DNA of 64,000 nt, taken from the NCBI GenBank assembly GCA_030922375.1, contig JAVEPB010000092.1, forward strand, positions 1 to 64,000, in the 5' to 3' direction. Position 1 is the first letter of the stretch, and each line of letters starts with the position of its first letter. The position numbers were made by a program, and so were the translations under genes. Source of the DNA: a bacterium. GTDB lineage: Bacteria; UBA8248. Below the pieces are notes generated by a model. The model was given only the letters and a program-made list of their open reading frames with translations. It made no database searches and was not told the DNA's origin. Positions 11,558 through 33,268 of this stretch are shown piece by piece.

Positions 11558-11747
11558 ATGAAATATAAAGCGTAGACAATCCGGAAAAATTATGTAAAAT
11601 ATTGATTTTAAATGGATTATGTTATCGTTTACGCTATTTGTTTCCTTTCCGGGAAGAATAACATCTCTTGACGCTTTTTTATCTATTGGGCATGGTTCGT
11701 GTCCTGAATTTCGAGATCAGGCTCAGGCTTCTTGGGAGAGTAAAAGT

Positions 11748-12344
11748 ATGGCAACGCTTCAGGAACAACTCTTTGTTCAGGTCGCTACCCGCTCGTTGAA
11801 TCAGCTGGCAAAAAATCTTCAAAAAAAGTACGAACCCAAAAAGGGAGACCGGTTCAGCGTTAAAGGAATCACCTATGAAATCGGTCCGCCTAGATGCGTG
11901 GACGATGGCATTCGATTTGAAATTAGCAGCAAAATTCCGGGTGACGAATTTCCGTCCGGCTATAACGAATCGAAGTACTTCAATGAAATCGAAAAAGTTT
12001 GCCAAAAGTCCTCTAAAAAACCCACCTCCAGCGATATGGAAAACATTATCCGGGAAACGCGCGACCAGGAACGCAAAGAGCGCGATTACGTGAAGTTGGC
12101 CTTTCAATACGAAAAAGGTGAGCTTTACGATGAAAGGGAGATTATAAAAGAAGTCGAGGAGTATTCAAAAAATCCGGACAAGGAAGTTCCTCCCTCCGTG
12201 CCGGGCGCGAACACCCTCGCCGCCAGGCTGATTTTGAACCGCCTTGAAGGAGCCTTGCTTGAATCGGCGGAAAAAAATATTGAGGATCTCATCAAGGCGA
12301 ACGATTCCGTCCGCTCCGGACTCAAGAAACTAAAGGGAAATTAA
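11748..12344 (+). CDS. Hypothetical protein, charged and mostly helical
   Basis: Start MATLQEQLFVQVATRSLNQLAKNLQKKYEPKKGDRF; GC-typical codon use; no family recognised. Confidence 0.7.
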   Translation: MATLQEQLFVQVATRSLNQLAKNLQKKYEPKKGDRFSVKGITYEIGPPRCVDDGIRFEISSKIPGDEFPSGYNESKYFNEIEKVCQKSSKKPTSSDMENIIRETRDQERKERDYVKLAFQYEKGELYDEREIIKEVEEYSKNPDKEVPPSVPGANTLAARLILNRLEGALLESAEKNIEDLIKANDSVRSGLKKLKGN

Positions 12345-12355
12345 TATACTCCTCC

Positions 12356-13588
12356 GTGCCCATGGCCCCGCCTCTCGCAATCACCGGATGCGCGGTCAGA
12401 ACACCACTTGAACATATATTCAACGCCTTGATCCTCGTGGATCGGGGCGTTGTTTCTTATGTAGGGCCTCTTGGCTCGCGCCCGATACCCACCGACGCGG
12501 AAATTCTGGATCTGGGCGGGCTGTTGGCCTGTCCCGGTTTTATCGACCTCCAGGTGAACGGCCTGGATGACAACGCGGTGATGGCCGCCGAGGCCGCCGG
12601 CGTTAGCGCGATGGCCGCGGAGTTGGCCTCGCGCGGGACCACATCGTTTCTTCCCACACTGACGACATCTTCTCAAGACCACCTTTTGGCCTCGGCCTCC
12701 GCCGTGCGCCAGGCGTGGGAAACTCTCGAAAAGGAAAATACCCCTTCGTCCTCGATTTTGGGCGTGCATCTCGAGGGCCCTTATTTTTCGAAAATGATGG
12801 CGGGTGTGCATCCGCCCGAACACATCAGGCCGATCGATATCGAGGAGATCGAACGAATCGCGGAGGCCGCTGGGGGCTGGGGGGTGGAGGGCTGTCCGGG
12901 GCTTGGGCTGGTCACGCTCTCCCCTGAGCTCGATGGCGCTCCCGAGGCGGTCCGTTGGCTTGGCGAACGCGGCGTCCTGGCCGCGATGGGGCATACGGCG
13001 GCCTCGGCCGACAGGGTGGAAAATTTCATATCCGCCGGTGGGGCGTTCGCGGTCCATGCCTATAACCGGTACGGCTCGCCCGGAGAGGCCGACTCTCCGG
13101 AGGCGAGGCCTTCCGATCACCGCTCCCCGGGTCCTATGGCTTCAGTGAGCTCGGACCCCAGACTGATGGCGGGCATCATCGCGGATGGCGTCCACGTACA
13201 CCCGGAAATCGTTTCTGAATTCGTCCAAAAAAAAGGCTGGTTCCGGACGGTTCTCACCTCCGACCTGGTGTCAGGCGGAGGTCTTTCAGGTGAGGAAAAA
13301 ACCCAAGCCTCGGGGTTTGCCGTCAAGCGCGGGGGGGTTTTGACCGGAAGCCGCCTGTCCGTCGGGGAGATGATCCCGCTTATCAGAAAATGGTGCCGGT
13401 TAGACGATAGCCGCATCCTGGCGCTCGCCACCCGGAACCCCGCCAATCTCCTCGGAGCGCCGGGGAAAAGAGGCAGCCTGCGCCCGGGAGCCAGGGCGGA
13501 CATCTGCTTCCTCGATCCGGATTCCCTGGAGGTGTCAGCCGTGATGGCGGGGGGTGAATGGGTTTCGGGCTCCCCGCCCCATGGATGA
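12356..13588 (+). CDS. nagA: N-acetylglucosamine-6-phosphate deacetylase-like amidohydrolase
   Basis: PGFIDLQVNG, GTTSFLPTLTT, GVHLEGPYFS, AMGHTAASAD, ADGVHVHPEIV, RNPANLLGAPGKRGSLRPGARADICFLD. Confidence 0.87.
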   Translation: MPMAPPLAITGCAVRTPLEHIFNALILVDRGVVSYVGPLGSRPIPTDAEILDLGGLLACPGFIDLQVNGLDDNAVMAAEAAGVSAMAAELASRGTTSFLPTLTTSSQDHLLASASAVRQAWETLEKENTPSSSILGVHLEGPYFSKMMAGVHPPEHIRPIDIEEIERIAEAAGGWGVEGCPGLGLVTLSPELDGAPEAVRWLGERGVLAAMGHTAASADRVENFISAGGAFAVHAYNRYGSPGEADSPEARPSDHRSPGPMASVSSDPRLMAGIIADGVHVHPEIVSEFVQKKGWFRTVLTSDLVSGGGLSGEEKTQASGFAVKRGGVLTGSRLSVGEMIPLIRKWCRLDDSRILALATRNPANLLGAPGKRGSLRPGARADICFLDPDSLEVSAVMAGGEWVSGSPPHG

Positions 13589-14035: not shown

Positions 14036-15703
14036 ATGAGCAAAAGCGCGGACGTCGACAGGCCGGAGCGGATTAGGTGGCTACCGCCGCTGGTTTTCCT
14101 CGTCAACCTGGGGATGGTGGGTATGCTGAACGCATACACCATCATCGACTTGAAACCCTCGCTTCCCCCGCACGATGCCTCCGGTCTCTATTTATTCCGA
14201 ATCATCCTCTCCGCATTGGCCATCTTGCTTCCAGCCGGGAGCAGTATTTACTATCTTCGGCCCGTTTTCGATTGGATACGCGGCCTTGGTGCGAGTGAAG
14301 CCGATAGCGACAAGACCAATGCGCCTGAGGAGGCTGTTATCCGCGGAGGAAACGCGCCGCTCGCCCTGGCCGTATTCTGTCTGATGACCTGGGCATTTCT
14401 CGACGTTCTTTTCTTTTTTCGGATCTGGACGATATTTCCGACCATCACCCTGGGGATGGTGGTCCATTTCTTCGGATTGCCGATTCTCGCCGGTCTGATT
14501 TCGGCGGCCACCATCTATTTTTTTGCCGAGGCAATTTGCCGGACTTTTGTTTGGCCGCTTTTGTTCGAGAAAATGCCAATTGAAGAAAATCCCCGGCTCC
14601 GGAAGGTGCGTGTCGTTCACCGTCTTTTCCTTCAGATGATAGCGATTTGTTTCCTTCCGCTCGGAGCGGTGGTCTTCACCGCTCTTATCCGGATGGACCG
14701 CCTATTGGCCGCGGATGACCCGATTCTCTTCCGTGTCATCATGGTCATCATCCTGATCGGCGTTTCGGCGTCCCTCGGCGGGGCATGGCTTGCTTGGGCG
14801 GTTGCGCACTCGATGAGCCGCGCCTTGCGTACCCTTGAAACTGCCATGGCGCAGCTGAGAGGGGGCGACTTTTCAGTCCGGGTGCGCGCGAGCGCAACGG
14901 ATGAAATCGGCGCCTTGGAGGAAGGTTTCAACCATACGGCCAAGCGCCTTTCGGAGAGTTACGAGGCCCTCGAGGAGCGGAACCGTGAGCTTGCCGAGGC
15001 GCTTGAACGGGTGGATTTTCTCGAAAAGGTCAAGCGGGGGTTGGATCGATTCGTCCCGGACACGGTGAGCCGTCTCGTCGAGGAAAATCCCGACGATCCG
15101 AATCTCGAGAAAATGGCGAAGGATATTACCGTCCTCTTCTTGGATATCGAAGGCTACACCCGTCTCAGCGAAAGTATACCGCGCGAGCAGCTCAACGAGT
15201 TGATCGAGCGTTATTTCTCTCTTTTTATCTCCGATATTCATGATGAGAATGGCGACATCAATGAAACTGCGGGCGACGGCCTCATGATTCTCTTTCAGGG
15301 CGAGAATCCGGACGAGCACGCTTCCTCGGCCGTCCGTGCCGCTCTCGCTATCGCCGAGAAAACGGAGGCGGCCAACAATTCGGTGGACGATGCCCGGAGG
15401 GCTCATCCGCCCATCCAGGTGAATATCGGTATCGGCTCGGGCGTGTGCCACGTGGGCTCGACCCGGATAAAGGGCGCGGCGGGGGAACGCTGGACGTATA
15501 CCGCCACGGGCCCAGTGACAAACATCGGCGCCCGCCTTTGCGGCTCAGCGACCCGGGGCCAAATTTTTCTCAGCCCGGAGACCGCCGAGCGGGTCAGTGG
15601 AAGATTCCGCATCGAGAAAATAGGACCTCTCGAACTGAAGAACGTCGGGAATCAAATCGAGGCCTGGGAGGTGAAGCCTGACCGGAGGAAATTGGCCCGC
15701 TAG
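14036..15703 (+). CDS. Membrane-anchored HAMP-class III nucleotide cyclase
   Basis: N-terminal TM segments, HAMP-like ALRTLETAMAQLRGGDFSVRVRASATDEIGALEEGFN, cyclase FLDIEGYTRLSE...INETAGDGLMILF...VGSTRIKGAAGERWTYTATGPVTNIGARL. Confidence 0.9.
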   Translation: MSKSADVDRPERIRWLPPLVFLVNLGMVGMLNAYTIIDLKPSLPPHDASGLYLFRIILSALAILLPAGSSIYYLRPVFDWIRGLGASEADSDKTNAPEEAVIRGGNAPLALAVFCLMTWAFLDVLFFFRIWTIFPTITLGMVVHFFGLPILAGLISAATIYFFAEAICRTFVWPLLFEKMPIEENPRLRKVRVVHRLFLQMIAICFLPLGAVVFTALIRMDRLLAADDPILFRVIMVIILIGVSASLGGAWLAWAVAHSMSRALRTLETAMAQLRGGDFSVRVRASATDEIGALEEGFNHTAKRLSESYEALEERNRELAEALERVDFLEKVKRGLDRFVPDTVSRLVEENPDDPNLEKMAKDITVLFLDIEGYTRLSESIPREQLNELIERYFSLFISDIHDENGDINETAGDGLMILFQGENPDEHASSAVRAALAIAEKTEAANNSVDDARRAHPPIQVNIGIGSGVCHVGSTRIKGAAGERWTYTATGPVTNIGARLCGSATRGQIFLSPETAERVSGRFRIEKIGPLELKNVGNQIEAWEVKPDRRKLAR

Positions 15704-15805: not shown

Positions 15806-17410
15806 ATGTTCGACTTCCTTTTTCGAAAAGCGCTTGTATATGACGGAAGCGGCGCGGATCCCTATATCGGGGACTTGGCGGTCGAGGGGGATATCATCGC
15901 CGAGGTCGCTCCGGTGGGCGCTCCGGGGGGCGCTCAAAACGCCCGCCGGGTTATCGACGCCGAAGGCCTGGCCCTGTCCCCCGGCTTTGTCGATATTCAC
16001 GGCCACTCCGATTATTACCTCTTGATGAACCCTACGGCTCAGGCCAAGGTTCGTCAGGGAGTGACGACCGATGTCGGCGGGAATTGCGGTTATGCCGCCG
16101 CTCCTATCGGCGGAGTCGAGCTCGAGGAGCGCCGCTCGTATTACCGCGAACAGTTCGGTCTGGAAATCCCCTTCTCGCGGCTTGACGAATACCTTTGCCA
16201 TGTCGAGAACACCGGCGTGTCGGTGAACTACGCCCCGCTGATCGGACACAATACCGTCCGCGCCACCGTTATGGGGGGAAGCGGTCGGCCCGCGGGGCCG
16301 GACGACCTCGACCGGATGGATCGCCTGGTTGACGAGGGAATGCGGGAGGGCGCGTTCGGTCTTTCGACCGGCCTGGTTTACGCCCCGGCCTGTTTCGCCG
16401 ATCGCTCGGAGTTGACGGCTCTCTGCCGGACTTCCTCGCGGCATGGCGGATTGCTCGCGACCCATATGAGGAGCGAGGGCGCCGAGCTTTTGGAGGCGAT
16501 TGAGGAGGTTATCGAAATTGCCCGGGACGCCGCGCTTCCCCTTCAAATCAGCCACCTCAAAACCGCGGGCGAGAAAAACTGGGATAAACTGGACGCGGCG
16601 TTCGGGTTGATCGAGGAGGCCAGGTCGTCGGGCCAGGACGTCACCTGCGACCGCTATCCGTATATCGCCTCAAATACCCATCTGAGTGCCCTGCTGCCCG
16701 ATTGGGTCCATAATGGCCAGTTGGAGGAGAAATTGGCCCGGCTCCGCGATCCTGAGATTCGGGCCCGGATTCGAACCGAATTGACGGAGACTTATCCGGC
16801 CCGGGATTATTGGGATCGCGTTTTGATTAGCCGGGTCCATACGGAGAATAACCGTTTTAGCGAGGGAATCACCGTGGCCGGGCTCGCCGAGAAAAGAGGG
16901 ATCGACTCACCGGAGGCCATGATGGATCTCCTTGCGGAAGAAAGGCTGTCCGTTGAAATCCTCATCTTCATGATGAACGAGGAAAACATGCGCCGGGTCA
17001 TGAAGAAACCCTATGTGATGGTCGGCTCGGATGCCGCCGCCTTGACCCATGAGCCCCCTTTGGGTTCGGGGAGGCCCCATCCCAGGAACTTCGGCACGTT
17101 CCCCGCCGTGCTGGGGAATCTGGCGAGAGACGAAGGGCTGATTTCTTTCTCGGAAGCGATACGAAAGATGACCTCCGCTCCCTGCGATAGGTTGGGGATA
17201 ACCAACCGCGGAAGATTGGCGGCCGGAATGAAGGCCGATCTTGTCCTTTTCGACCCGGAGCGGATTTTGGATACTACGACTTACGAGAAGCCCGTTTCCT
17301 ACCCCGCCGGAATACGGATGGTTTTCGTGAACGGTAAGGTTGTCGTCGAGGACGGAGAGCACACAGGAGCCCGCCCCGGCCGGGCGCTCCGCAAATGGGA
17401 TTCCAAGTAA
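15806..17410 (+). CDS. N-acyl-D-amino-acid deacylase / D-aminoacylase family
   Basis: PGFVDIHGHSDYYLLMNPTAQAKVRQGVTTDVGGNCGYAAAPIG, QISHLKTAG, GSDAAALTHEPPLGSGRPHPRNFGTFPAVLG. Confidence 0.9.
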   Translation: MFDFLFRKALVYDGSGADPYIGDLAVEGDIIAEVAPVGAPGGAQNARRVIDAEGLALSPGFVDIHGHSDYYLLMNPTAQAKVRQGVTTDVGGNCGYAAAPIGGVELEERRSYYREQFGLEIPFSRLDEYLCHVENTGVSVNYAPLIGHNTVRATVMGGSGRPAGPDDLDRMDRLVDEGMREGAFGLSTGLVYAPACFADRSELTALCRTSSRHGGLLATHMRSEGAELLEAIEEVIEIARDAALPLQISHLKTAGEKNWDKLDAAFGLIEEARSSGQDVTCDRYPYIASNTHLSALLPDWVHNGQLEEKLARLRDPEIRARIRTELTETYPARDYWDRVLISRVHTENNRFSEGITVAGLAEKRGIDSPEAMMDLLAEERLSVEILIFMMNEENMRRVMKKPYVMVGSDAAALTHEPPLGSGRPHPRNFGTFPAVLGNLARDEGLISFSEAIRKMTSAPCDRLGITNRGRLAAGMKADLVLFDPERILDTTTYEKPVSYPAGIRMVFVNGKVVVEDGEHTGARPGRALRKWDSK

Positions 17411-20400
17411 TGGGCCTTTATTCCTCCCTGTCTTTGGTAGGCGCGATGGCGGTTAGTGCGCTCATCGCTGTCTGGTTGTTCTACAAGCGCTCGCACAGGG
17501 ATGATTTTCCCGAGGAAACCTGGGATCCGTATTTTGATAAAAACGAGAACGGCGGCGAAGGGGGGCCCGAAAGAGAGATCGATGAAATCTCCGGGGAGCC
17601 GGCTGCCGAGCCGGCCGCCGAGGCGGGCCTGGAACCAGCCGATGAGGAACCGGTCACTCCGGCTTCCACTGCGTTGGCCGATCGGATTCAAGGGCTCAGG
17701 GAGGAGCCGCCCTCTCCTGGAGAAGGGATCGCCCCCGGAGGGGAATTCGAGGATACCCCGGAGCCTGCGGACGGACCCGATTCCGGTTTTGAGGATCAGG
17801 TGGAACTGATCGCCGGCGGACCCGTTTCTCCTGAAAATTCCCGAGGTGACCTCGAAAAGGCCGACCTCTCCTTCGCTCCCGATGAGGCGGAGGGCGATTC
17901 CCCCGCCCCCGGGAGCCCGATTGAAACTCCGGCTTATTCACAAAGCGCACCGCCGGATTTAAGTGGAGAGGCCGCCACCGCTCCTCCTGGCGCCCCGTGG
18001 TGGGAGGGGCTTCCTGCCCCCAAGGAAGTTTTTTTCCGGAGAGGTGTGGCTGAACTGATGGGGGTGACCGTCATCGATCCCCCCCCGCAGGCCGAGGCGG
18101 GTCCCGGGGAGGCTTCGGTTCCCGAAGCCTCCACTTTTGAAGCTCCGGCTCCCGAGGCCTCTACGCTAGAGGCTCCGGAGACCGTCGGTGCGCCAGCCGA
18201 TACGGCGGCGGATTCCATTGCCCCGGACGAGGCGGGTGAAGCCGGGGAGCCGCCCGCCTCGGAATTTACCGGAGCGTCTCCCTTCGGGGAGGAAGATTCG
18301 GAAACGCCGCTTTCCCTTGAGGAAGAAGCCTTCGAGGAAGAAGAATCCCCCTTCGAGGAACCTGCCCCTGAAGAGCAGGTTTCATTGACGGACGAATCCG
18401 CTCCCGCCCCGGAAATTTCGGCGGCGGATGAAAGCGATGATTCTTCGTTCACCCTGGAGTCCATCTCCCTTGGCGATGAGCCGGACGAAGCCCCTGTGAT
18501 GTACGAGCCCGAAGGCGCCCCCAGCCGGGAGGAAGAAGGCGGCGGATTCGCCGAACCGGCCATTCAGCAAGAAGAAATGGCCGGAGAGGAATCCTCGGGG
18601 CCGGAAACTTTGGAGACATCCCCTTCGTTCGAGGAAAAAGAATCCCCCTTCGAGGAGTTCTCCCCGGAGGAACCTGCCCCTGAAGAGCCGGTTTCATTGA
18701 CGGACGAATCTGCTCCCGCCCCGGAAATTCCAGCGGCGGATGAAAGCGATGATTCTTCGTTCACCCTGGAGTCCATCTCCCTTGGCGATGAGCCGGACGA
18801 GGCCCCCGTGATGTACGAGCCAGAAGGCGAATCAGCCCCCGCCCCGGCGGAGGATGAGGAAATCTCGCTTTCATCCCCCGCTGACAGCGAATCCTCCGAA
18901 GCGATAGACAATTTTCTTTCGCAAGCGGAACCGCCTTCCTCGGCGTCGGCCGGCCTCGTGGACGATGAGATTGAACCGGCACCGGAGGCCGAAGGGGAAA
19001 TATCTCCCGAACCGGAAGATGAAAGTTATTCGGACTTGGGAGAGTCCGAGGAAATGCCCATGGCTTTCGATCTCGATGCCGGGAGACAGGATTTCATCGA
19101 ATCCGATGAACCGGTGCAAGAGCTTCCCGATGGTCTCGAAGACGGAAAATTCGAATCCGGGGGGGCGGAGGAATTTTCCGAGGCTCCCTCCGGGGTGGAG
19201 GAGGAATCGGCCTCCGGGCCGGGGGAGGAAGCCCCCCCCGCCGGCCTGATGGAACAAATACCAGAAGATCCCGTCGAGACGACCCTTGATTCGTCAGAGC
19301 TTGAAGAAGAGCCCGCCGAGGTAGTCCTCGATCCGGGAGAACTTGAAGAAGAGCCCGCCGAAGCAACCCTCGATCCGGGAGAGCTCGAAGAAGAGTCCGC
19401 CGAGGCAACCCTCGATCCGGGAGAGCTCGAAGAGGAACCCGGGAGCGCGGACGGCGAACCCACCGAGCCCGAAGAGATATCAGCGGAGGCGGTTCTCGAT
19501 CCGCTGGAGATGGAAGAAGAGTCTCCTGAGCAGGCAATCGATTTGGAATCGTTTGGGGCCGAGGCGGAAGAACCCACTCCGGAGGAACCCGCCTTCGCTC
19601 AGCCAGAGGATGTGCCCTCGGATGAAGCCCTGCCCGCCGCCGAGCCGGAGGGGCCCGCCCCGGAGGAGTCCCTTGATGTTTTCTCCGTTCTCGAGCAGGA
19701 GCGCGCCGAAACCCCGGAGGCCATGCCACAGGAATCCATTGGAAACGCAGCCCTTTTTGAGGATTTCGGTGACGAGAGAGTGGAGCCGGCGGCGCCGGAG
19801 CCCTTTGCCGCCGAGCGGGCCGACGAGCGAGCTGGGGCTGGAGCCGATACCGAAGACGCCTTTGGTGAAGAATTGGTATCGGAGGAAATCGCGGCCCAAC
19901 ACGGAGAGACCGGAGCGGAAGCCCCCCGGGAGGAGAAGCAGCCTGTTGAAGAAACGCTGGAACCGGCCGCCCCCTCCGAACCGGCCTCGCCTCCTATCCC
20001 TCTTTCGGGTGAGTCGATGCCCGATATGGTGCGGAATTTCGTCGCCGACTGTTGTCCCGACGATCTTCTGTTGATTGAAGAAGAGTGGGATACCCTTCCG
20101 GCCGGAATCGATAAAATCGCCGCCGCCGGTTGGAGAGATATACAGGAGCGTTTGGAATCGCGCCAGGAAGTCGGGGAGGAGGAATTTCTTCGAATCGGCA
20201 TACTCGAATATTTGATGGGCAATCATGATGCGGCGTTGGCACATCTGAAAGAATCGCTTCGGCGGGCAAAGCGCATGGGCCCTGTTTTAAATGCGCTTGG
20301 CGTAACCAGCTTTGGACGGGGGAAAATCGACCCGGCGATTTCTTACTGCCGGGAAGCGGTACGGGAGGCGGGACCGGACTTGCGGTTGCTGGTTGCCATT

Positions 20401-21162
20401 AACCGGAATTTGGGGGTCCTCTACCAATCCAAGGGTGAATTCGGGCGCGCGGCCGAGGCGACTGCTTCCGCCATCAAATACGTGGGCTCCGAGGGAAGCA
20501 CCCGGTTGTTGGCGAACCTTCATCTCCGGGCGGGGCAGTTGTTCCGGAAACTCGGGGACGCCGAAGCCGCCAGACATCATCTTTCCGAGTCGGCGCATCT
20601 GTTCCTTCGCGAGGGAGACGATGCCGCGCGAATCAGGTCGCTTGTGGCGCTCGCTGCCGCGCAGACGGGTTTAAACGAGGTTGACGCGGCGCTCAAGAAT
20701 CTGAACGAAGCGGCCTTGATGTGCCGGAGGGTGGGTGACAAAAACGGAGAGGCCCTGGTGATGGGGCAGATGGGAATCGCCTATTCCGCCCAGGAGCAAT
20801 ACACCAGGGCGCTTGAATATTACGAGAATGCCATTTCCCTCAACAGGGAGCTTGAAAATCGCAAGGGAGAAGGGGCCAATCTCAGCAACATCGGGAACAT
20901 TCATTATTTCAGGGGCGATCTCGACGAGGCGCTTTCCGCCTACGAGGAGGCGCTCGTGATCAACAAAGAGCAGGATCATCTCATCGGACAGGCGACGATT
21001 ATGGGGAACCTGGGAAGAATTTATCTCGAGCAGGGCAGGGTGGAAGAGGCGATAGAGCGGCTGAACGAATCGCTGGAAATATTCAGGCCATTTGCCGCCA
21101 AAAGCCAGATGGAAAATATCCGGGAAATGCTCGACGAAGCGGTTCGCTCCCGGGACCAATAA
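17410..21162 (+). CDS. Very large acidic Glu/Pro/Ala/Ser-rich membrane-anchored protein with C-terminal TPR domain
   Basis: Start MGLYSSLSLVGAMAVSALIAVWLFYKRS (TAATG overlap with upstream stop); about 850-residue acidic low-complexity region with repeats; TPR array in roughly the last 350 aa (GNLGRIYLEQGRVEEAIERLNESLEIF etc.). Confidence 0.88.
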   Translation: MGLYSSLSLVGAMAVSALIAVWLFYKRSHRDDFPEETWDPYFDKNENGGEGGPEREIDEISGEPAAEPAAEAGLEPADEEPVTPASTALADRIQGLREEPPSPGEGIAPGGEFEDTPEPADGPDSGFEDQVELIAGGPVSPENSRGDLEKADLSFAPDEAEGDSPAPGSPIETPAYSQSAPPDLSGEAATAPPGAPWWEGLPAPKEVFFRRGVAELMGVTVIDPPPQAEAGPGEASVPEASTFEAPAPEASTLEAPETVGAPADTAADSIAPDEAGEAGEPPASEFTGASPFGEEDSETPLSLEEEAFEEEESPFEEPAPEEQVSLTDESAPAPEISAADESDDSSFTLESISLGDEPDEAPVMYEPEGAPSREEEGGGFAEPAIQQEEMAGEESSGPETLETSPSFEEKESPFEEFSPEEPAPEEPVSLTDESAPAPEIPAADESDDSSFTLESISLGDEPDEAPVMYEPEGESAPAPAEDEEISLSSPADSESSEAIDNFLSQAEPPSSASAGLVDDEIEPAPEAEGEISPEPEDESYSDLGESEEMPMAFDLDAGRQDFIESDEPVQELPDGLEDGKFESGGAEEFSEAPSGVEEESASGPGEEAPPAGLMEQIPEDPVETTLDSSELEEEPAEVVLDPGELEEEPAEATLDPGELEEESAEATLDPGELEEEPGSADGEPTEPEEISAEAVLDPLEMEEESPEQAIDLESFGAEAEEPTPEEPAFAQPEDVPSDEALPAAEPEGPAPEESLDVFSVLEQERAETPEAMPQESIGNAALFEDFGDERVEPAAPEPFAAERADERAGAGADTEDAFGEELVSEEIAAQHGETGAEAPREEKQPVEETLEPAAPSEPASPPIPLSGESMPDMVRNFVADCCPDDLLLIEEEWDTLPAGIDKIAAAGWRDIQERLESRQEVGEEEFLRIGILEYLMGNHDAALAHLKESLRRAKRMGPVLNALGVTSFGRGKIDPAISYCREAVREAGPDLRLLVAINRNLGVLYQSKGEFGRAAEATASAIKYVGSEGSTRLLANLHLRAGQLFRKLGDAEAARHHLSESAHLFLREGDDAARIRSLVALAAAQTGLNEVDAALKNLNEAALMCRRVGDKNGEALVMGQMGIAYSAQEQYTRALEYYENAISLNRELENRKGEGANLSNIGNIHYFRGDLDEALSAYEEALVINKEQDHLIGQATIMGNLGRIYLEQGRVEEAIERLNESLEIFRPFAAKSQMENIREMLDEAVRSRDQ
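18361..18516 (+). repeat. Internal duplication copy 1 (156 bp, partner 18673-18828)
   Basis: Encodes PAPEEQVSLTDESAPAPEISAADESDDSSFTLESISLGDEPDEAPVMYEPEG; near-identical at nucleotide level to copy 2. Confidence 0.92.
18673..18828 (+). repeat. Internal duplication copy 2 (156 bp, partner 18361-18516)
   Basis: Encodes PAPEEPVSLTDESAPAPEIPAADESDDSSFTLESISLGDEPDEAPVMYEPEG; only a handful of substitutions versus copy 1. Confidence 0.92.
19285..19440 (+). repeat. In-frame 42-bp (14-aa) tandem repeats, about 3-4 units
   Basis: LDSSELEEEPAEVVLDPGELEEEPAEATLDPGELEEESAEATLDPGELEEEP; degenerate later unit LDPLEMEEESPEQAIDL. Confidence 0.9.
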
Positions 21163-21206: not shown

Positions 21207-21719
21207 CTAGCCTTCGACAAGAGCATCGGCCTCGCGGAGTTTCCTGGAAAGCTCTTTCGCCAGGTGAGTAGTGACCTTGAAGCCAAGCGAAGGCAGGGTT
21301 TCGGCCAAAATGTCGCGTTCTATCGAAAAGAGCAAAGTGCTTTTCGCGGTCTCCGCCGTGGCGGCGCGAGGCGCCTCCTCGAGAATCGCCATCTCTCCGA
21401 AACAATCCCCATGCCCAAGCCTCGAAAGTTCGATGTCGCCGCGGCGAATGACGACTTCCCCGTAAACGATCACGTAAAAACAATTTCCGATATCGCCCTG
21501 GCCGAATATCCTTTGGCCGGGCCGGTACGATCTTCGTCCACAGAGTTTCAGTATCCAGGCAATTTCCCTTTCGCTCATCGCGGAGAAAAAGTCGTAATTC
21601 TCCCGGAGCCTGGCAATGAGTTCGGCGATCGAGGGTATTCCTTCGCGCGTCAGTTGAAAATCCCGCGTTCGCTGCGGGACATCGCCCGAGTTATTGTTCG
21701 TTCCTTTCTTGTCTTTCAT
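21207..21719 (-). CDS. Cyclic nucleotide-binding (CNB/CAP-ED) domain protein
   Basis: KLCGRRSYRPGQRIFGQGDIGNCFYVIVYGEVVIRRGDIELSRLGHGDCFGEMAILEEAPRAATAETAKSTLLFSIERD. Confidence 0.87.
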   Translation of the reverse strand: MKDKKGTNNNSGDVPQRTRDFQLTREGIPSIAELIARLRENYDFFSAMSEREIAWILKLCGRRSYRPGQRIFGQGDIGNCFYVIVYGEVVIRRGDIELSRLGHGDCFGEMAILEEAPRAATAETAKSTLLFSIERDILAETLPSLGFKVTTHLAKELSRKLREADALVEG

Positions 21720-21846: not shown

Positions 21847-22470
21847 TTATAGCTTCTTGACTTTTTCTTTTACGACGTTGAGTTGTCTTTGCATCATCCT
21901 GATGGTTTCGTTCGCATCGCGGAGCTTTTCGGAAAGCTGGCGCGCGATGCTCTCCATGATCTTGTTGCCGAACGTCGGCATTTTGGAGTGGAGAATCGTC
22001 CGGGAAATGGAAAAGAGGAGGGAGGGCTCCGCTGCCACCGCCGAGGCGGTGCGCTTTGCATTGTCGAGCAGGGCCATTTCACCGAACACCATACCGGGTT
22101 TCATCCGGGCGACCTCCTTGTCTCCGACGCTGATGATGATTTCTCCCGAGATAACCAGGTAAAATTCGTTTCCATATTCGCCTTCTTTGAAAATTTTGCT
22201 TCCGGCGGTGAAATTCTCCCTTTCGCAAAGCTTCAGGAACTGGCCCACCTCCATTCCCTCCATTTCGGAGAAAAAGGGGTAGTTTTTCTGAAGTTTTTGA
22301 ATCAGGCCGAGCAGCGCTTTTGGAACCGATTTCTCGAACTGAATTCTCTGGACCATGGGGTTCGAGGCCGCCGGGGCCGCCGGAGCTGCCGGGGCCGTAG
22401 GAAATGCTGGAGTCGCCGGAGTCACCGGGGCGCCAGGGTTGGGATTTTTTTTTCCGGCGGGCATGTTCAT
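21847..22470 (-). CDS. Cyclic nucleotide-binding domain protein with Ala/Pro-rich N-terminus
   Basis: LCERENFTAGSKIFKEGEYGNEFYLVISGEIIISVGDKEVARMKPGMVFGEMALLDNAKRTASAVAAEPSLLFSISR; N-term NPGAPVTPATPAFPTAPAAPAAPAAS. Confidence 0.87.
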   Translation of the reverse strand: MNMPAGKKNPNPGAPVTPATPAFPTAPAAPAAPAASNPMVQRIQFEKSVPKALLGLIQKLQKNYPFFSEMEGMEVGQFLKLCERENFTAGSKIFKEGEYGNEFYLVISGEIIISVGDKEVARMKPGMVFGEMALLDNAKRTASAVAAEPSLLFSISRTILHSKMPTFGNKIMESIARQLSEKLRDANETIRMMQRQLNVVKEKVKKL

Positions 22471-22668: not shown

Positions 22669-23883
22669 TCAAGAAGTCAGGGCGAATTTTTCGGTAATTC
22701 CCGCGAGAATGGCGGCGGCCCTCCGGAGCTCCTCCACCCCGATAAATTCGTCGGGACTGTGCGCTTGCGCGATGTTTCCGGGCCCGATCAGAAAGCATTG
22801 AGAGTTTCCGGTGCGCGCGGCAGCCAGGCCCGCGTCCGTGTAGTAGCTGACACCGGCCGGCCGGGGGGGCGCGCCGGTGATTTCGGCGATGGCCTCGCCG
22901 ATGATTTTCGCTCCCGGCCCCTGAAGGTCGGAGAGGACAGGAGGCCGATCGACCGAGAGGGTCTGGAGCGTGGCCGAGGCGCCCGGAACGTCTTTGCAAG
23001 CCTCCTCGGCGGCATCCGACAATAGGGCGCGAACCTCGGGGATGGTCAGTGGCGGGATGAACCGGACATCCACCTCGATGCGGCAGCTGTCGGGCACGAT
23101 GTTGGTTTTGCTTCCGCCCCGGATAACGCTCGTGACGATGGTGGTTTTACCCAGTAAATCGTGGGTGGCTTCCATCGATGCGGCCATATCCTCGAGGCGA
23201 ACGAGGGTTCTCGCCGCCGCCTGAATAGCGTTAACGCCCATTTGGGGGGCGGCGGCGTGGGCGTTCCGCCCGGAGAAGAGCAGCTCGAACCACATCGCGC
23301 CCTTTTGCGCCGTTTTCAGTTCCAGGCCGGTGGGCTCGCAGGAAATGACGACATCCTCCCTCGCGACCCGCCCGAGATCCACCGCCTTCGACACCCCCTG
23401 CATCCACTGACATTCCTCATCCACCACAAGGCAGGTTCTAACCGACCGCCGGAGTTTCGCCCCTTGGTCCAGTTTCGCTTTCAGGGATTTAACGGCGATC
23501 AGGGCGGCGGCCAGGCCCCCTTTCATGTCGCATGCGCCGCGCCCCCAGAGTTTCCCCTCGGAGACCTCGGCTGAAAACGGATCGCGTGTCCAGCCGTCCC
23601 CGGCGGGAACAGTATCCATGTGGTTCAGAAAAACGAGTGCGGGAGCGCCCGGTGAGGCGTTTAACGGTGAGACGCTTAGTTCGGCGGTGATATTCTGGCG
23701 CCCGTCGATGACTTCATCGCGCTGCACATCGAGGCCCAGTCCCCGAAGAAAGGCTTCGGTGCGCTCCATCATGCCGGCTTCGGTGCCGCCGGGGTTCTCG
23801 CTCCGGACGCGCACGAGCTCGCGGGTCAACGACACGGTTTCGTCAATCAGCGCGCTGTCCATCGCGTCCTCCGGTGGAGACAT
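22669..23883 (-). CDS. M20 family metallopeptidase (ArgE/DapE-like)
   Basis: LVFLNHMDTVPAGDGWTRDPFSAEVSEGKLWGRGACDMKGGLAAALIAVKSL; HSPDEFIGVEEL. Confidence 0.88.
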   Translation of the reverse strand: MSPPEDAMDSALIDETVSLTRELVRVRSENPGGTEAGMMERTEAFLRGLGLDVQRDEVIDGRQNITAELSVSPLNASPGAPALVFLNHMDTVPAGDGWTRDPFSAEVSEGKLWGRGACDMKGGLAAALIAVKSLKAKLDQGAKLRRSVRTCLVVDEECQWMQGVSKAVDLGRVAREDVVISCEPTGLELKTAQKGAMWFELLFSGRNAHAAAPQMGVNAIQAAARTLVRLEDMAASMEATHDLLGKTTIVTSVIRGGSKTNIVPDSCRIEVDVRFIPPLTIPEVRALLSDAAEEACKDVPGASATLQTLSVDRPPVLSDLQGPGAKIIGEAIAEITGAPPRPAGVSYYTDAGLAAARTGNSQCFLIGPGNIAQAHSPDEFIGVEELRRAAAILAGITEKFALTS

Positions 23884-23922
23884 CCGTCTCCAGTTCGCCG
23901 CGAGAGCGTTTTTACGTCCACC

Positions 23923-25122
23923 CTAAAGCACCGAGAGATAATTCTTGCCGGGCGTGATGTTGCCCAGAACGACGGCCCGCTCCGCTCCCGTGGCCGCCGG
24001 AACATTGGCCGGCTCTCCTCTAAGGGCAGCCCATCCGAGGAGGGCGAAAGCGACCGCCTCCACCGCATCGGGAGAGATTCCGCGATCGGCGCTGGTCACC
24101 AGGGGGGCCGAACCTAGCCCTTCCCCGAGGCGGTCCATCATCGAATGATTGTTCACCCCTCCTCCTCCCGCGATGAATTCGGCCGGGGGCGAATCGGCGG
24201 GAAAGTGCGCGCGGATGGTGTGAACGATGCATTCCGCCGAAAATGCCGTCAAGGTGGCCATCCGGTCCTCGGGGGCCATGTCGAGCCTGCCGAAAAGAGC
24301 ATGCGTCTCGTTAAAAAAAGTTTCGCCGAAGGCTTCGCGTCCGGTGCTCTTCGGTGGCGGAAGTTTTAGGTAGGGATGACTCATGAGGGAGGCAAGCGCT
24401 TCCTCGTTCACCCGGCCCCGCGCCGCCATCTCGCCGCCGCGATCAAGGCGCTCCCGCCCGCCCGAAATTTTTCGGGCCAGCGCGTCGAGCGCCATATTCG
24501 CCGGCCCGGCGTCGAAGCCGGTGAGCCCCTTTTCATTCGCCGGGGGGATATAGGTGATGTTCGATATACCGCCGAGGTTGACGAACGCAACCGGCAGGTC
24601 CGGGCGCCCGAAGAGAATCCGGTGCGCCCAGGGAGTGAGGGGCGCGCCCATGCCGCCTGCGGCCACGTCCCGGGCGCGAAAATCCGAGACGACCGTACTG
24701 CCCGTCCGCTCCGCGATTACGGCGGGGTCTCCGATTTGGAGCGTCGAAGGAAGGAGCCGGCCCTTGGGGCCCTCGCCTCCCACGGGCAGATGCCGCACCG
24801 TCTGACCATGGCTGCCGATGAAGTCCACCTCCCTCGGGGGCACCCCCGAGGAGTCCATCAAGGCGAGAGCGGCCCCGGCGAATGCGTCGCCGATCTCGCG
24901 GTGAAGCGAGCAAATCTCCTCGGTGAAAGCGCCGGGCTCCCCGCCCGCGTCGAGCACACGGCGCTGAAGCTCATCCGGATACGGAACGGAAAGGAACGCC
25001 ACAACATCAACTCCGGGCGGAGGGCCCGAGGCGATTCGCACCAGCGCCGCGTCCACCCCGTCCGCCGAGGTTCCCGACATCAGGCCGATGGCCATATGGT
25101 CCCGCGCGGATGAAATATTCAT
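23923..25122 (-). CDS. anmK: Anhydro-N-acetylmuramic acid kinase
   Basis: MAIGLMSGTSADGVDAALVRI, IGSHGQTVRHLP, LQIGDPAVIAERTGSTVVSDFRARDVAAGGMGAPL, VNLGGISNITYIP, GFDAGPANMALDALA. Confidence 0.94.
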   Translation of the reverse strand: MNISSARDHMAIGLMSGTSADGVDAALVRIASGPPPGVDVVAFLSVPYPDELQRRVLDAGGEPGAFTEEICSLHREIGDAFAGAALALMDSSGVPPREVDFIGSHGQTVRHLPVGGEGPKGRLLPSTLQIGDPAVIAERTGSTVVSDFRARDVAAGGMGAPLTPWAHRILFGRPDLPVAFVNLGGISNITYIPPANEKGLTGFDAGPANMALDALARKISGGRERLDRGGEMAARGRVNEEALASLMSHPYLKLPPPKSTGREAFGETFFNETHALFGRLDMAPEDRMATLTAFSAECIVHTIRAHFPADSPPAEFIAGGGGVNNHSMMDRLGEGLGSAPLVTSADRGISPDAVEAVAFALLGWAALRGEPANVPAATGAERAVVLGNITPGKNYLSVL

Positions 25123-25123
25123 G

Positions 25124-27418
25124 TCACCTTTTCGCTTTCGCCGGAGCCTGGCGCCGTTTTCCGTAGATTCGCCGGTATTCATTAAGATAGCCGAGAACTT
25201 TTTTCACGTAATTGCGCGTTTCCTGGTAAGGGATTCTCTCGATGAACACCTCGATGGGCTCATCGCCCCGCTTGTCCCACCATTTTTTGACTGCGTTTTT
25301 GCCGGCGTTGTAGCTGGCGATCGCCGGAACAAGCTCTCCCTTGAAATCTTTTACCAGATCGCCCAGATAACGCGCTCCGAGGCGTACGTTCAATGCCGGG
25401 TCGAACAGCGCTTTGTCCGAGGGCCGGGGAATTTTAAGTTTCCGGGAAAGCCGCCGGGCCGTGGCGGGCATGAGCTGCATGAGTCCGATGGCCCCCGCGC
25501 GGGAGAACGCATTCCGATCGAAAAAACTCTCCGCGCGGATGATGGCGTTGACGAGGAGCGTATCGGCGTCGCCCGGTCTTTTTTTGTTCTGTTGGAGCGG
25601 GAACGCCATTTTCCAAAAAGATGGCGGCAGATCCTTTCCCCCCGACCGGACGGCATCCCAAAAGGATTTGTGCATGATCTTTATCGCCATGTCGTATCGC
25701 TTTCCGTTGAGATACGACCTGGCGGTCCGAAGCTTGAAGTAGGGGGAAGGCCCCAGCCGCTTGAACTCCTCGGCGGCCATGAAATGAAGCCCCATGGAGT
25801 CGAGCATCTCCCCCGCCCGCCAGCGGTTAAGCGAACCCTTGGTGAGGAAGTTCTTCGGCGGGCGAAGCCAGTTCCGGTAGCCGGCCTTGGGACGGGATAT
25901 CGGCTTGGGAGCGAACCCCGACTCGCGCGCCATGCGCCGGAGGGCGGCTATCGCCCGCTGGCCGTAGTACCGGTGCCGGTAGACCTGGGCGCATTTCTGG
26001 TAGAGCGACTCGGCCTTTTCCCTCTCCCCCGCGCGCAGGGCGGCCGCGGCGCCCCAGAAGAGGGCCGAGGAGGCGAGGCGGTGATTTGGATGCATGGCCT
26101 CGAATTTTTCAAATCCCCGGGCCGCTTTGAAATAGTCTTTTTCTCTCAAGAGAATCCACGAGAGTTGCCAGCGGGCATTCGAGGCGCGCGGCGAGAGCGG
26201 GTGTTTTTGAATGACCTCCCGGTAGAAGCGGACGGCTTTATCGTAGTCGCTGTCGTCTTCGCTGACCCGCGCGAGGAGATATCGCGTCCGCGCCGCCCAG
26301 GTCCCGTTGGGAGCCTCCTCCAAAAGCCTGCTTGCCTCCGACTCGAAGGCCGGCTGATCGCGGCGCCGCAGCTGATTCCGGGTCAAATAGAAGCGGACCT
26401 GCGCGCGGGCGGGCGAGTCGGCGGAAAACAGGTGAACGGCTTCCTTGAGCGCCCTCTGGGCTTTTTCGGTCCGGCGGAGTGAATAAAGGGCGAGCGATTC
26501 GTAGAGCGTGACCTCGCGCCGATAGGGGGAGGCCGGAAAGAGGCGCGTCAGTTCACGGTATGCCCCGAGGGCTTTTTCAAAGTGATATTTTTTCTGAAGA
26601 TGCCGGGCTCTGAGAAAATAGTCGCGCGGCCCGAAGGGGCGAAGGGGCGGGTCCAGGGCCTGGCCCGCCTCGCCCGCCCGCTCCAGGGCGCGCTTTGAGG
26701 CGTCGCTCTCCGGGTAGCGGAGCCACAATCGCCGCCATGCGACCGCGGCCTCCCTCATGCGCCCGGCCCTCTCGAAGGCTTTGGCCCTTCGGGCCAGAAA
26801 TTTGCCCGCGTTTTCGTGATTTGGTTCATGGCGAAGCAACTCGCCGAGCCGGGCGGCGGCGCGAAGATATTTACCGCCTCGAAATTCGATCCGGGCCAGC
26901 GTCTCCAGAGAGTCGGGGACGTGCGTACTCGCCGGGTCGACGAGGATCAGTTTTTCCAGCGCTTTTTTCGCCGCTTCGTCGTCCTTGGCGGCCAGCGATG
27001 CCCTCGCCGAAAAATGAAGGATATGGGCCCTAAGCTCGGGCGCCTGGCGAAGGGCCCGCCTGAAATAGGATACGGCGTCCTGGCTTCGATTCAGTTTCAG
27101 GGAAGCGTAGCCGAGTAAAAAAGAGCGGCGGCCATTGAGCGGGGAGGTGCGCTCCTCCAGCCGGGCCGCCAGCTTTTTGTAATTTCGTTTTTTGATGAGA
27201 CGAAGGATATTCCTTGGGAGCGAGGAGAGCTTCTTCGGTTTTTGTTTCTTTTTTATTTTCTTTGTTGTTTCCTTTCTCAATCTGGAGCCGGATTTCGGGG
27301 ACGGCTTCGGGCCGCGGGGCGGGGCCGGATTTTTGGAAGCGGAATGGGAAAGGGAAGCAAAAGAACATGCGGCGGCGAATGTCAGAGCGAGAGCGAAAAC
27401 AACATTCCGCCGAACCAT
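25124..27418 (-). CDS. Soluble lytic transglycosylase (Slt70-like: tetratricopeptide-type helices plus SLT domain)
   Basis: Helical repeat region then IIRAESFFDRNAFSRAGAIGLMQLMPATARRLSRKL...NVRLGARYLGDLVKDFKGELVPAIASYNAG...FIERIPYQETRNYVKKVL. Confidence 0.92.
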   Translation of the reverse strand: MVRRNVVFALALTFAAACSFASLSHSASKNPAPPRGPKPSPKSGSRLRKETTKKIKKKQKPKKLSSLPRNILRLIKKRNYKKLAARLEERTSPLNGRRSFLLGYASLKLNRSQDAVSYFRRALRQAPELRAHILHFSARASLAAKDDEAAKKALEKLILVDPASTHVPDSLETLARIEFRGGKYLRAAARLGELLRHEPNHENAGKFLARRAKAFERAGRMREAAVAWRRLWLRYPESDASKRALERAGEAGQALDPPLRPFGPRDYFLRARHLQKKYHFEKALGAYRELTRLFPASPYRREVTLYESLALYSLRRTEKAQRALKEAVHLFSADSPARAQVRFYLTRNQLRRRDQPAFESEASRLLEEAPNGTWAARTRYLLARVSEDDSDYDKAVRFYREVIQKHPLSPRASNARWQLSWILLREKDYFKAARGFEKFEAMHPNHRLASSALFWGAAAALRAGEREKAESLYQKCAQVYRHRYYGQRAIAALRRMARESGFAPKPISRPKAGYRNWLRPPKNFLTKGSLNRWRAGEMLDSMGLHFMAAEEFKRLGPSPYFKLRTARSYLNGKRYDMAIKIMHKSFWDAVRSGGKDLPPSFWKMAFPLQQNKKRPGDADTLLVNAIIRAESFFDRNAFSRAGAIGLMQLMPATARRLSRKLKIPRPSDKALFDPALNVRLGARYLGDLVKDFKGELVPAIASYNAGKNAVKKWWDKRGDEPIEVFIERIPYQETRNYVKKVLGYLNEYRRIYGKRRQAPAKAKR

Positions 27419-28635
27419 TACTTTTCCGCGGTCCGGGGTCTTGAAGCGGGGCGGCGGCCCTCGATCCGAAACTCTGCCTTGACCCGGCTTCTCGCTTCTT
27501 TATCGAGGAGAATATCGACGCCGGTCATCGCGAGGGCTTTCGCACCGAGGAAAAGGGTTTTTTTCCCGGCCGTTCCTCCCGCGGCTTCGGCGAAGGCCCG
27601 CGTATGCGCGGAGATATCGGGCGATACCATTTGAATCTCGGGATGAATGGTGGGCACATTCTGGCTGGCGTTCCCGACGTCCGATGAGCCCATGGCGAGA
27701 GGAGGAAGCGGATTCGGCTCAAAGACGCCCAAACTTTCGAGGTTCCGCCTAAAGAGAGAGGCCAGCTCCCCGTTCACGCGCATCGGCGCGTAGGTGATCG
27801 GGTTTTTATCGACGCGGACCCTGGTTCCGGTGGAGCGCGCCGCCCCCTTGGCGCAGTTGATGACTCGCTGGAGAATATCCTCAAGGCCTTCCGAGGTTTC
27901 GCTCCGGACGTAAAACCAGGCGGCGGCCTTCTCGGGGACGATATTGGGCGCTTCGCCGCCCTCGGTGATCACTCCGTGGACCTTGTCGCCCGGCGGAAGA
28001 TGCTGTCTGAGAGAGGAGATGGCGTTGAATGCGGCGAGAACGCCGTCCAGCGCGTTGATTCCTTTTTCGGGGGCCGCCGATGCATGGGAAGCTTTGCCGT
28101 AAAAACGAAAGCGAAGCTCCGCCAGGGCGAGGAAATTGACCATCGCACGGGTCTCCCCCGAAGGATGCATCATCATGTTGGCGTCGATTCTCCGGAAAAG
28201 ACCCCTTTTCGCCATGATGACTTTTCCGCCCCCACCCTCTTCGGCGGGCGTCCCGAGGACCTGGACGCCGCCAGTCTCGGGCCCAACGGTATTGGCCAGC
28301 GCGGCGCCGGCCCCGGCGCTGGCCATGGCGATCACGTTGTGCCCACACGCGTGCCCCAGGCCGGGAAGAGCGTCGTATTCGGCCATGAACGAAACCATCG
28401 GCTTGCCTGTGCCCTTTGCCGGCCGTTTGGCCCTGAAAGCGGTGGGCAGGTCCGCCACCCCCATCTCGATGCCGAAGCCCCGCTCCTCCAGGTACCGGGC
28501 GACGGCCGCCGAGGCGCGTTTTTCCTGAAACCCCACCTCGGGATGGCGGTGGAGTTCGAGGGAAAGGGACCAAAGAGAGGGCGCTGCCATATCGATGTAC
28601 CCGGAGACAGCGGATTTGATTCGGTCGAGTTCCAT
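27418..28635 (-). CDS. M20 family amidohydrolase (AbgB/HipO-like)
   Basis: SLELHRHPEVGFQEKRASAAVARYLEERGF, AEYDALPGLGHACGHNVIAMASAGA, GTPAEEGGGGKVIMAKRG. Confidence 0.9.
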   Translation of the reverse strand: MELDRIKSAVSGYIDMAAPSLWSLSLELHRHPEVGFQEKRASAAVARYLEERGFGIEMGVADLPTAFRAKRPAKGTGKPMVSFMAEYDALPGLGHACGHNVIAMASAGAGAALANTVGPETGGVQVLGTPAEEGGGGKVIMAKRGLFRRIDANMMMHPSGETRAMVNFLALAELRFRFYGKASHASAAPEKGINALDGVLAAFNAISSLRQHLPPGDKVHGVITEGGEAPNIVPEKAAAWFYVRSETSEGLEDILQRVINCAKGAARSTGTRVRVDKNPITYAPMRVNGELASLFRRNLESLGVFEPNPLPPLAMGSSDVGNASQNVPTIHPEIQMVSPDISAHTRAFAEAAGGTAGKKTLFLGAKALAMTGVDILLDKEARSRVKAEFRIEGRRPASRPRTAEK

Positions 28636-30008: not shown

Positions 30009-31067
30009 ATGAGCGATAAAACCCCCAATCCCCCCTCCGGAGAAGCCTCCGGCTCCACCCCGCCCCTTAGAGGTTTCGGCGGAGCGCCGTTTAATGGCGG
30101 GGTGCGTATTCTTATCCGCGATAAAAAGTTCCGGTGGGCCTGGGGGGTTTCGGTCGTGCTCCATGCGGTGATATTCGCCGCCGCCGCATGGACGCCCTCG
30201 TCGGCGAATTACCGTTTCTTTGGGAGCGGGACGGCGGTCAGCCTCGTGGGAGCGGACGAAATCCCGGGAGGTTCGGCCCGCGGGAAATCCGGCGACCGCC
30301 CGGAGGATTTGCAACAGCCCAAGGCCACCGGCGGCGGCAAGGCCCGAAAGATCGCCACGCCCGATAAAAAGAAAAAGAAAAAAAAGACCAAGGTGCGCAA
30401 ACGCCGGACCCGGAAGAAAAAATCTCCTCCGAAAAAATCCGTCAGGAAGTTGCCGGTAAAGAAAAAAATTAAGAAAACGAAGAAAAAAAAGAAAAAAATA
30501 AGCAAGCGGCGCCTGGCCCGGCTCAAGCGGCTGAAAGCGCGCAAGGAGCGGTTGAAAAAATGGCGCAGGAGACAACAGAAACTGGCCAAGGGCAAAACGA
30601 AGCCCACCCCCCCCGCCAATCCGAAAAGCCGTAAAACGAAGAGGGGGGGCGGAGACGTCGTCGCGAAAAATACGCCGGCCAAGCCCAAGGCGGGTTACCT
30701 TGGCGAGGGCGGCGGCGACGGCCAGGGTGGCGGGAGTCTGGGCGGCGGGAGCGGCGGGGTCGCTCGGTCCGATATCGACCGCTATTATGGTCTCCTGGGT
30801 GAACGTGTGAGGAATTTTTGGACCGTTCCGCCGAGTTTGACCGATCTCGATAAGCTAAAGACCATTGTGATTTTCGACGTATCGCGCGAGGGTGCGATTC
30901 GCGGGCTCCGCATCGAGAAAACGAGCGGCAACCGGGTATACGACACCGCCGCGCTGCGGGCGGTTCAGCGCGCCGCCAACCCTTCCTTTCCGACTCCGCC
31001 CAATACGGTGACGGAAGAGTGGCTTCCGCTGGGCTTTCGATTTTGCGGGCAGAACTTTTGCCGTTGA
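30009..31067 (+). CDS. tolA: TolA/TonB-like energy transducer with polybasic linker
   Basis: Single TM near N-terminus (FRWAWGVSVVLHAVIFAAAAW), long Lys/Arg-rich linker, TonB C-like NFWTVPPSLTDLDKLKTIVIFDVSREGAIRGLRIEKTSGNRVYDTAALRAVQRAAN; between tolR and tolB. Confidence 0.87.
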   Translation: MSDKTPNPPSGEASGSTPPLRGFGGAPFNGGVRILIRDKKFRWAWGVSVVLHAVIFAAAAWTPSSANYRFFGSGTAVSLVGADEIPGGSARGKSGDRPEDLQQPKATGGGKARKIATPDKKKKKKKTKVRKRRTRKKKSPPKKSVRKLPVKKKIKKTKKKKKKISKRRLARLKRLKARKERLKKWRRRQQKLAKGKTKPTPPANPKSRKTKRGGGDVVAKNTPAKPKAGYLGEGGGDGQGGGSLGGGSGGVARSDIDRYYGLLGERVRNFWTVPPSLTDLDKLKTIVIFDVSREGAIRGLRIEKTSGNRVYDTAALRAVQRAANPSFPTPPNTVTEEWLPLGFRFCGQNFCR

Positions 31068-31072
31068 CGGAG

Positions 31073-32449
31073 ATGATTCTGATGACTCGGACCGTAACTT
31101 GTCGGAGGAGATTTGGCCGCCGCCTCGGGTGGATTGCCGCAGGGGTTGTTTTGTTCGCGTTGGCGGCCGGGGGCGGTTTCGCGGGTCGGGCCGAAGGTGC
31201 GGCCAAGGACCGCGTCTATATGGATTTGTACTCGCCCAGCGCGAGGAGAATTCGCCTCGCCATTCCCGAGCTTCGTCCGCAGGAGGGCCCACGCAGCCCG
31301 ATGGGGCTCCGCATCGCCGAGATAATCGAGTCCGATCTTCAGCGCAGCGGCTTGTTTTTCATCCGGGACCGGAAAGGGTATCTCGAGAATCCGCTTAAAT
31401 CGGGAATCCGAAAAAACGAGCAGCGCTTCAAGGAATGGCTCAACGTGGTCAAGGTTGAGGGACTGATCAAGGGCGGATACCGCATTTCGGGAAATACGAT
31501 TGAAGTGGAAATGTATCTATACGACACCGCCCGCGGGGCGCAGGAACTCGGGAAGCGGTATCGCTATCCCCGTTCGAACTGGAGGTTGCTCGCACACCGG
31601 TTCGCCAACTCCGTGCTCGAGCGGTTCACCGGCCAAAAGGGAATATTCCACACCCAGATCGCCTTCGTGGCCCGCCGCTCCCTAAAACACCGGGGCGAAA
31701 TCTACATTATGGATTGGGACGGCGCCCAGCTCCGCCGCGTCACGCGCAACGGACAGGGCAACAACGCCCCCGCCTGGTCGCCTGACGGCAAATGGCTGGC
31801 CTACTCGTCTTTTAAAACGATGGTGCCCGGCGTATTTATACTTCCGACGAATGGGGGCAGGGAATTTCGCGTGAGTTCGAGGCGGGCCCAGGCGATTGGC
31901 GGGGGTTTCTCCCCGGACAGCCGTTATTTCGCCTACTCCCAGCTCACCGGCCGAAACTATGAACTCTATCGATACGACATGTTTTCCCGTGTGAGGAAGC
32001 GCCTTACTCGAAACTTCGGAATCGACGTTTCGCCGTCCTTTTCTCCGGACGGAAGGAAGATCGTGTTTTCCTCGGGCCGCAGAGGTTCCCCACAGATTTA
32101 CGTAATGAACGTCAATGGTTCGGGAATTCGGCGAATTTCCCAGCGGGGAACATACAATACAGAGCCGGAATGGAGCCCCAGGGGAGATCGAATCGCTTTT
32201 ACCGGCCGTGTAACGGACGGTTCTTCCATCGATATCGTTACCGTGAATCCCGATGGGAGCGACTTGCGCCGCCTGACCGGGGGCCAGCGAAGGAATGAGT
32301 CTCCCACCTGGTCTCCGGACGGCAGGAATATTGCGTTTTCTTCAGATCGCTCGGGCCAGAAATACGTTTATGTGATGACTTCGGCCGGAACCCAGTTAAA
32401 ACGGCTTCAATTGGGACAAGAGCCCTCCTGGTCGCCCTCTCTCCCGTGA
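31073..32449 (+). CDS. tolB: Tol-Pal system beta-propeller TolB
   Basis: Repeated SPDGKWLAYSS / SPDGRKIVFSSGRRGSPQIYVMNVNGSGIRRIS / SPRGDRIAFTG / SPDGRNIAFSSDRSGQKYVYVM WD-like blades. Confidence 0.94.
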   Translation: MILMTRTVTCRRRFGRRLGWIAAGVVLFALAAGGGFAGRAEGAAKDRVYMDLYSPSARRIRLAIPELRPQEGPRSPMGLRIAEIIESDLQRSGLFFIRDRKGYLENPLKSGIRKNEQRFKEWLNVVKVEGLIKGGYRISGNTIEVEMYLYDTARGAQELGKRYRYPRSNWRLLAHRFANSVLERFTGQKGIFHTQIAFVARRSLKHRGEIYIMDWDGAQLRRVTRNGQGNNAPAWSPDGKWLAYSSFKTMVPGVFILPTNGGREFRVSSRRAQAIGGGFSPDSRYFAYSQLTGRNYELYRYDMFSRVRKRLTRNFGIDVSPSFSPDGRKIVFSSGRRGSPQIYVMNVNGSGIRRISQRGTYNTEPEWSPRGDRIAFTGRVTDGSSIDIVTVNPDGSDLRRLTGGQRRNESPTWSPDGRNIAFSSDRSGQKYVYVMTSAGTQLKRLQLGQEPSWSPSLP

Positions 32450-33242: not shown

Positions 33243-33268
33243 GTTTTTTTGCTTTCGCCACTTAAAGG

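Follow-up and report, generated by a model that had tools for sequence, protein, structure and literature searches.

The gene at 17410 to 21162 on the forward strand of the analysed stretch of DNA (the window, 64,000 nucleotides) was found to encode a protein that is very probably a membrane-tethered scaffold or adaptor. Its architecture, with one N-terminal helix, a disordered acidic tether of variable length carrying motifs, and a superhelix of eight TPRs with caps, is solid at the level of sequence and structural model. The reading we prefer, at close to an even chance, is that of a lineage-specific TPR scaffold tethered to the inner membrane and acting in the recycling of cell-wall fragments or in envelope maintenance. 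Taken by itself and judged from the genomic context, the service to recycling or envelope maintenance is given rather less than an even chance, and a role tied to the adjoining cyclase is unlikely at best.

Gene and reading frame

The forward-strand open reading frame spans 17395-21162, and residues are numbered throughout from the ATG at 17395, that is in the 1255-aa version. The protein probably starts at the second ATG, 17410, since in L034, a relative from the same genus, the first ATG has no in-frame counterpart, and the other genera begin at the equivalent of the second. The ATG at 17410 also shares bases with the stop codon of the upstream amidohydrolase gene (TAATG), which together with L034 favours the originally predicted start over 17395. 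The features of the gene are the following.

17410..21162, forward: scaffold gene (membrane-tethered acidic-linker TPR protein), 1250 aa, or 1255 aa if the in-frame ATG at 17395 is used
17425..17481, forward: N-terminal membrane helix, residues 11-29, mean Kyte-Doolittle 2.13
17485..17532, forward: basic patch KRSHRDD and juxtamembrane motif FPEETWDPY, residues 31-46
17533..20022, forward: acidic, proline-rich, predicted disordered linker, residues 47-876 (from composition and AlphaFold2 pLDDT)
17995..18078, forward: linker motif 1, PWWEGLPAPKEVFFRRGVAELMGVTVID, residues 201-228 (from the shuffle test)
18340..18517, forward: 178-nt duplication in the linker, copy 1
18652..18829, forward: 178-nt duplication, copy 2, 92% identical to copy 1
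19263..19441, forward: 42-nt (14-residue) tandem array in the linker, 4.3 copies
19675..19767, forward: linker motif 2, DVFSVLEQERAE...ESIGNAALFEDF, residues 761-791, containing the predicted helix 762-770
20023..21159, forward: C-terminal domain, residues 877-1255, with N-cap, eight TPRs and C-cap helix (from Pfam and AlphaFold2)

An error of the gene model was ruled out, as all relatives whose gene is complete have the same frame joining membrane helix, linker and TPR domain, and dN in the linker is 0.22 against a dS of 0.66 between close relatives. No orthologue with a complete gene lacked the TM or the TPR part. Several antisense open reading frames of 115-254 aa lie opposite the linker on the reverse strand (17934-20244); they reflect its codon bias and are unlikely to be genes.

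Membrane helix and acidic linker

No second hydrophobic helix was found in the scaffold protein, the Kyte-Doolittle value elsewhere being at most 0.97, and a helix was present at the equivalent position in 14/14 relatives tested, complete genes or fragments, including G006. The approximately 10 residues ahead of the helix hold no lysine or arginine and KRSHR stands just after it, so that by the positive-inside rule the N-terminus is predicted to lie outside and everything after the helix in the cytoplasm. The juxtamembrane FPEETWDPY is kept in the genera labelled g1, g2, g5 and g6 and not in g4.

The linker of about 830 residues consists of 30% D/E and 2% K/R. Computed over residues 37-880, it holds 252 D/E and 20 K/R with a pI of 4.05, and E, P, A, S and D together make up 66%. 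It is predicted to be disordered: in an AlphaFold2 model of residues 190-1255, pLDDT was below 50 for 662 residues, nearly all of them in the linker (190-867), and the only sizeable linker helix predicted was 762-770 with pLDDT about 50. Linker length varies from 346 to 840 residues among relatives, and all are acidic throughout (D/E 21-31%, K/R 2-8%). The linker in the window has been enlarged by duplication, by way of the 178-nt repeat and the 14-residue tandem array, the array being mostly an expansion of the window genome. The protein had been described from its sequence as an N-terminal TM helix, a short basic patch and some 850 repeat-bearing residues rich in E/P/A/S/D and poor in basic ones, followed by a TPR array, and each of these parts was borne out by the analysis.

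Conserved motifs within the linker were assessed against shuffled sequences. Motif 1 (WWE-L-AP…VAELMG) outscored 300/300 shuffles in each of 7 relatives from 5 genera, and motif 2 (DVFSVL-x-ERAE…) outscored all shuffles in g1, g5 and g6, with a weaker signal in g2 and g4. In the same test, two control segments from the linker did no better than shuffles. A third candidate, SFTLES, is conserved within the genus only and was dropped as a lineage-wide motif.

C-terminal TPR domain

The TPRs are located at about residues 928-1233, with TPR_12 as the top Pfam match (E 1e-33), and residues 873-1255 were modelled by AlphaFold2 with a pLDDT of 94.7 as eight TPR hairpins flanked by N-cap helices and a capping helix. 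Beyond generic TPRs, the scaffold protein matched no named family. The nearest fold was the TPR domain of LGN/Pins, with TM scores of 0.60-0.64 at about 20% identity, and LGN/Pins was also the top PDB sequence-profile match among natural proteins. TPR domains of LGN/Pins hold extended peptides in their concave groove (PMC6525239). In the scaffold, groove-lining positions carry 7-9 K/R versus 1-5 D/E in 16/16 sequences, and the outer face is reversed; a net-positive groove within a net-negative outer surface suits an acidic or mixed ligand, and the modelled domain probably takes an extended peptide of this character. Conservation of the groove positions as a set was not significant (p = 0.10) and was rejected as proof of ligand binding. 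A literature search on LGN with an acidic superhelix found nothing.

Distribution in the lineage

The C-terminal domain was present in 16/18 lineage genomes, and all genomes with the domain belong to one family within one phylum of the taxonomy used. In the remaining two, the contigs end inside the scaffold gene: G002 has the N-terminal part at the contig end, and in G006 a protein with the helix and the basic patch starts directly after the amidohydrolase before the contig ends. The layout was identical wherever the gene is complete. A profile of the N-cap gave zero matches in 272 genomes outside the lineage, and a literature search under the lineage name found no papers. The scaffold is a protein conserved across an uncultured phylum-level lineage.

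Gene neighbourhood

The surrounding genes with a bearing on function are listed below.

12356..13588, forward: NagA-like N-acetylglucosamine-6-phosphate deacetylase, the usual upstream gene
14036..15703, forward: HAMP and class III nucleotide cyclase, between nagA and the amidohydrolase in the window genome only
15806..17410, forward: amidohydrolase (Amidohydro_3, N-acyl-D-amino-acid deacylase-like), the translationally coupled constant partner
21207-21719 and 21847-22470, reverse: two stand-alone cNMP-binding proteins, convergent with the scaffold gene
22669..28635, reverse: M20 peptidase, AnmK, Slt-type lytic transglycosylase and a second M20 enzyme, conserved cell-wall turnover neighbours

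The amidohydrolase gene lies immediately upstream of the scaffold gene in every relative whose assembly covers the site; in the relatives measured, the two genes overlap by up to 16 nt or are separated by up to 17 nt. Its product was closest to model PRK09061, with a score below cut-off; we take this model to be the D-glutamate deacylase family. Nearly all lineage relatives also keep, upstream, the gene found here at 11619-12344 on the forward strand, which codes for a 241-aa protein without Pfam match. Since the loci of G003 and G008 (L033 and L037) have no nagA but retain the 241-aa protein and the amidohydrolase, the amidohydrolase and the scaffold make up the constant pair. NagA, AnmK and Slt are known to act in the turnover and recycling of peptidoglycan. 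Past the recycling genes, a Tol-Pal cluster is found at 30009-34334 on the forward strand (TolA/TonB-like, TolB, OmpA-type Pal and a CpoB-like TPR protein), and it is near the recycling genes in several relatives too.

The cyclase was found at the equivalent place in 0/16 related loci. The distance from nagA (where present) to the amidohydrolase is about 90-100 nt in relatives, and for this reason the cyclase gene seems to have been inserted here recently; on the gene orders compared, it is incidental and outside the conserved unit. Close cyclase orthologues occur on other contigs in G003, G004, G008 and G011, g4 genomes gave weak cyclase matches only, and G005 gave no match at threshold. Both cNMP-binding proteins lack a DNA-binding domain and have a canonical-looking FGE...R-A phosphate-binding stretch, and their genes are syntenic in four genera in one to three copies, with none at the g4 locus. 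That the scaffold unites the HAMP cyclase and the stand-alone cNMP-binding proteins in cyclic-nucleotide signalling would accord with the cyclase gene upstream and the two cNMP-binding genes downstream in the window, and with the synteny of the latter. It is nevertheless very unlikely, as the cyclase is missing from all the related loci and without a match at threshold in G005, the cNMP genes run in the opposite direction, and g4 keeps the scaffold without a close cyclase orthologue or local cNMP genes. A cyclase scaffold was rejected as the main reading because the cyclase is not syntenic, and the original prediction, in which a scaffold role was notable given the adjoining cyclase, did not hold up in this respect.

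The translational coupling to the amidohydrolase and the peptidoglycan-recycling and Tol-Pal neighbourhood make a recycling or envelope task the likeliest one, although gene neighbourhood does not prove joint function. In such a scaffold for recycling or envelope maintenance, the helix would serve as the inner-membrane anchor, leaving tether and TPR domain on the cytoplasmic side. A client would be bound by an extended stretch of peptide, probably acidic or mixed, lying in the net-positive concave groove; further partners might dock on the conserved motifs of the linker, and how far the protein can reach would depend on the anionic tether. Cytoplasmic enzymes of cell-wall-fragment recycling, or envelope-maintenance factors, could in this manner be gathered at the membrane. 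If recycling enzymes are so gathered, the system would exemplify how peptidoglycan salvage can be organised in space.

Comparison with known systems

FimV, HubP and TspA consist of a membrane helix, a long acidic cytoplasmic region of variable length, with imperfect repeats in HubP, and a C-terminal TPR domain, and a FimV homologue without periplasmic domain is reported from Acinetobacter (PMC12918733). The scaffold has the same order of parts. It differs in lacking LysM, any other periplasmic domain and FimV_core, and in having eight TPRs with a lineage-specific N-cap, conserved linker motifs and other gene neighbours. The absence of a LysM motif, noted at the outset, was confirmed by a profile scan of the N-terminal 230 and 880 residues, which gave none even at E 10, and in the FimV profile search FimV_core (TIGR03505) was not among the NCBIfam matches to the whole protein or its last 86 residues at E 10. 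A phylum-wide genome search for FimV_core was empty, as were its control searches, and the verdict is drawn from the scans of the protein itself. In view of the Acinetobacter homologue the missing LysM alone is not fatal to FimV membership, but the absence of FimV_core counts against it. The original proposal of a FimV/TspA-like scaffold consequently stands for the layout of anchor, acidic stretch and C-terminal TPR and falls for membership of the FimV family, which was rejected on the lack of both LysM and FimV_core; to call the protein an analogous membrane scaffold is reasonable.

By the same analogy the scaffold might act as a polar landmark of FimV/HubP type, marking the pole and bringing machinery for motility, pili, the chromosome or signalling to it, and the shared order of anchor, acidic repeat-bearing linker of variable length and C-terminal TPR, as well as the Acinetobacter FimV without periplasmic domain, speak for it (PMC12918733). 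Besides the missing FimV domains, the genomes themselves stand against such a role: PilT was above cut-off in 0/18 lineage genomes, and FliF was found in 4/18 and is missing from the other 14, including the window genome. A landmark for pilus or flagellum is for these reasons unlikely for most carriers, and the polar landmark as a whole is an unlikely reading. The layout is found here without a FimV domain, in genomes mostly without pilus-retraction and flagellar genes, which suggests that the FimV-like layout of anchor, acidic tether and TPR arose more than once.

ZipA has a single N-out helix, a charged stretch, a proline-rich disordered linker and a cytoplasmic C-terminal binding domain. 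The scaffold shares this topology and order of parts and differs in its C-terminal TPR, its far longer and strongly acidic linker and the want of a direct link to division genes. A division or septal tether like ZipA, with FtsZ or another cytoplasmic division protein kept at the membrane by the TPR domain, would fit the shared topology known in general for ZipA, the occurrence of FtsZ in 18/18 genomes and the Tol-Pal genes in the neighbourhood. It is made distinctly unlikely by the C-terminal fold, which is modelled entirely as TPR and matches TPR families only, with no FtsZ-binding domain of ZipA found, and by the lack of any division gene adjoining the scaffold gene.

In kinesin light chain, the TPR groove reads short tryptophan-acidic motifs and is regulated by a linker (PMC13078783). 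The scaffold linker likewise retains a WWE motif beside its TPR domain, a likeness that is short and unproven; there is no motor partner, and docking of the linker motifs on the TPR domain within the molecule had no support in the AlphaFold2 model of residues 190-1255. It would be highly speculative, and is the least probable of the readings, that the conserved linker motifs fill the positive groove and are released only when a client, for instance a cell-wall enzyme, takes their place. The protein would then be a self-regulated membrane-anchored TPR switch devoted to peptidoglycan recycling, and a bacterial equivalent of TPR adaptors gated by a linker, of which kinesin light chain is one.

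Like the scaffold, LGN/Pins (GPSM2) has eight TPRs with N- and C-capping helices (PMC6525239). It is eukaryotic, lacks a membrane anchor and has other linker and C-terminal parts; GoLoco, its G-alpha-binding part, had no Pfam match in the scaffold protein, which stops at the TPR cap. On the modelled structure the likeness is one of fold and probably of peptide binding, and not of demonstrated descent. The membrane-anchored acidic-linker TPR architecture is known as a kind, and the protein described here is a distinct variant of it, restricted to the lineage, whose C-terminal domain, linker motifs and gene partner are its own.
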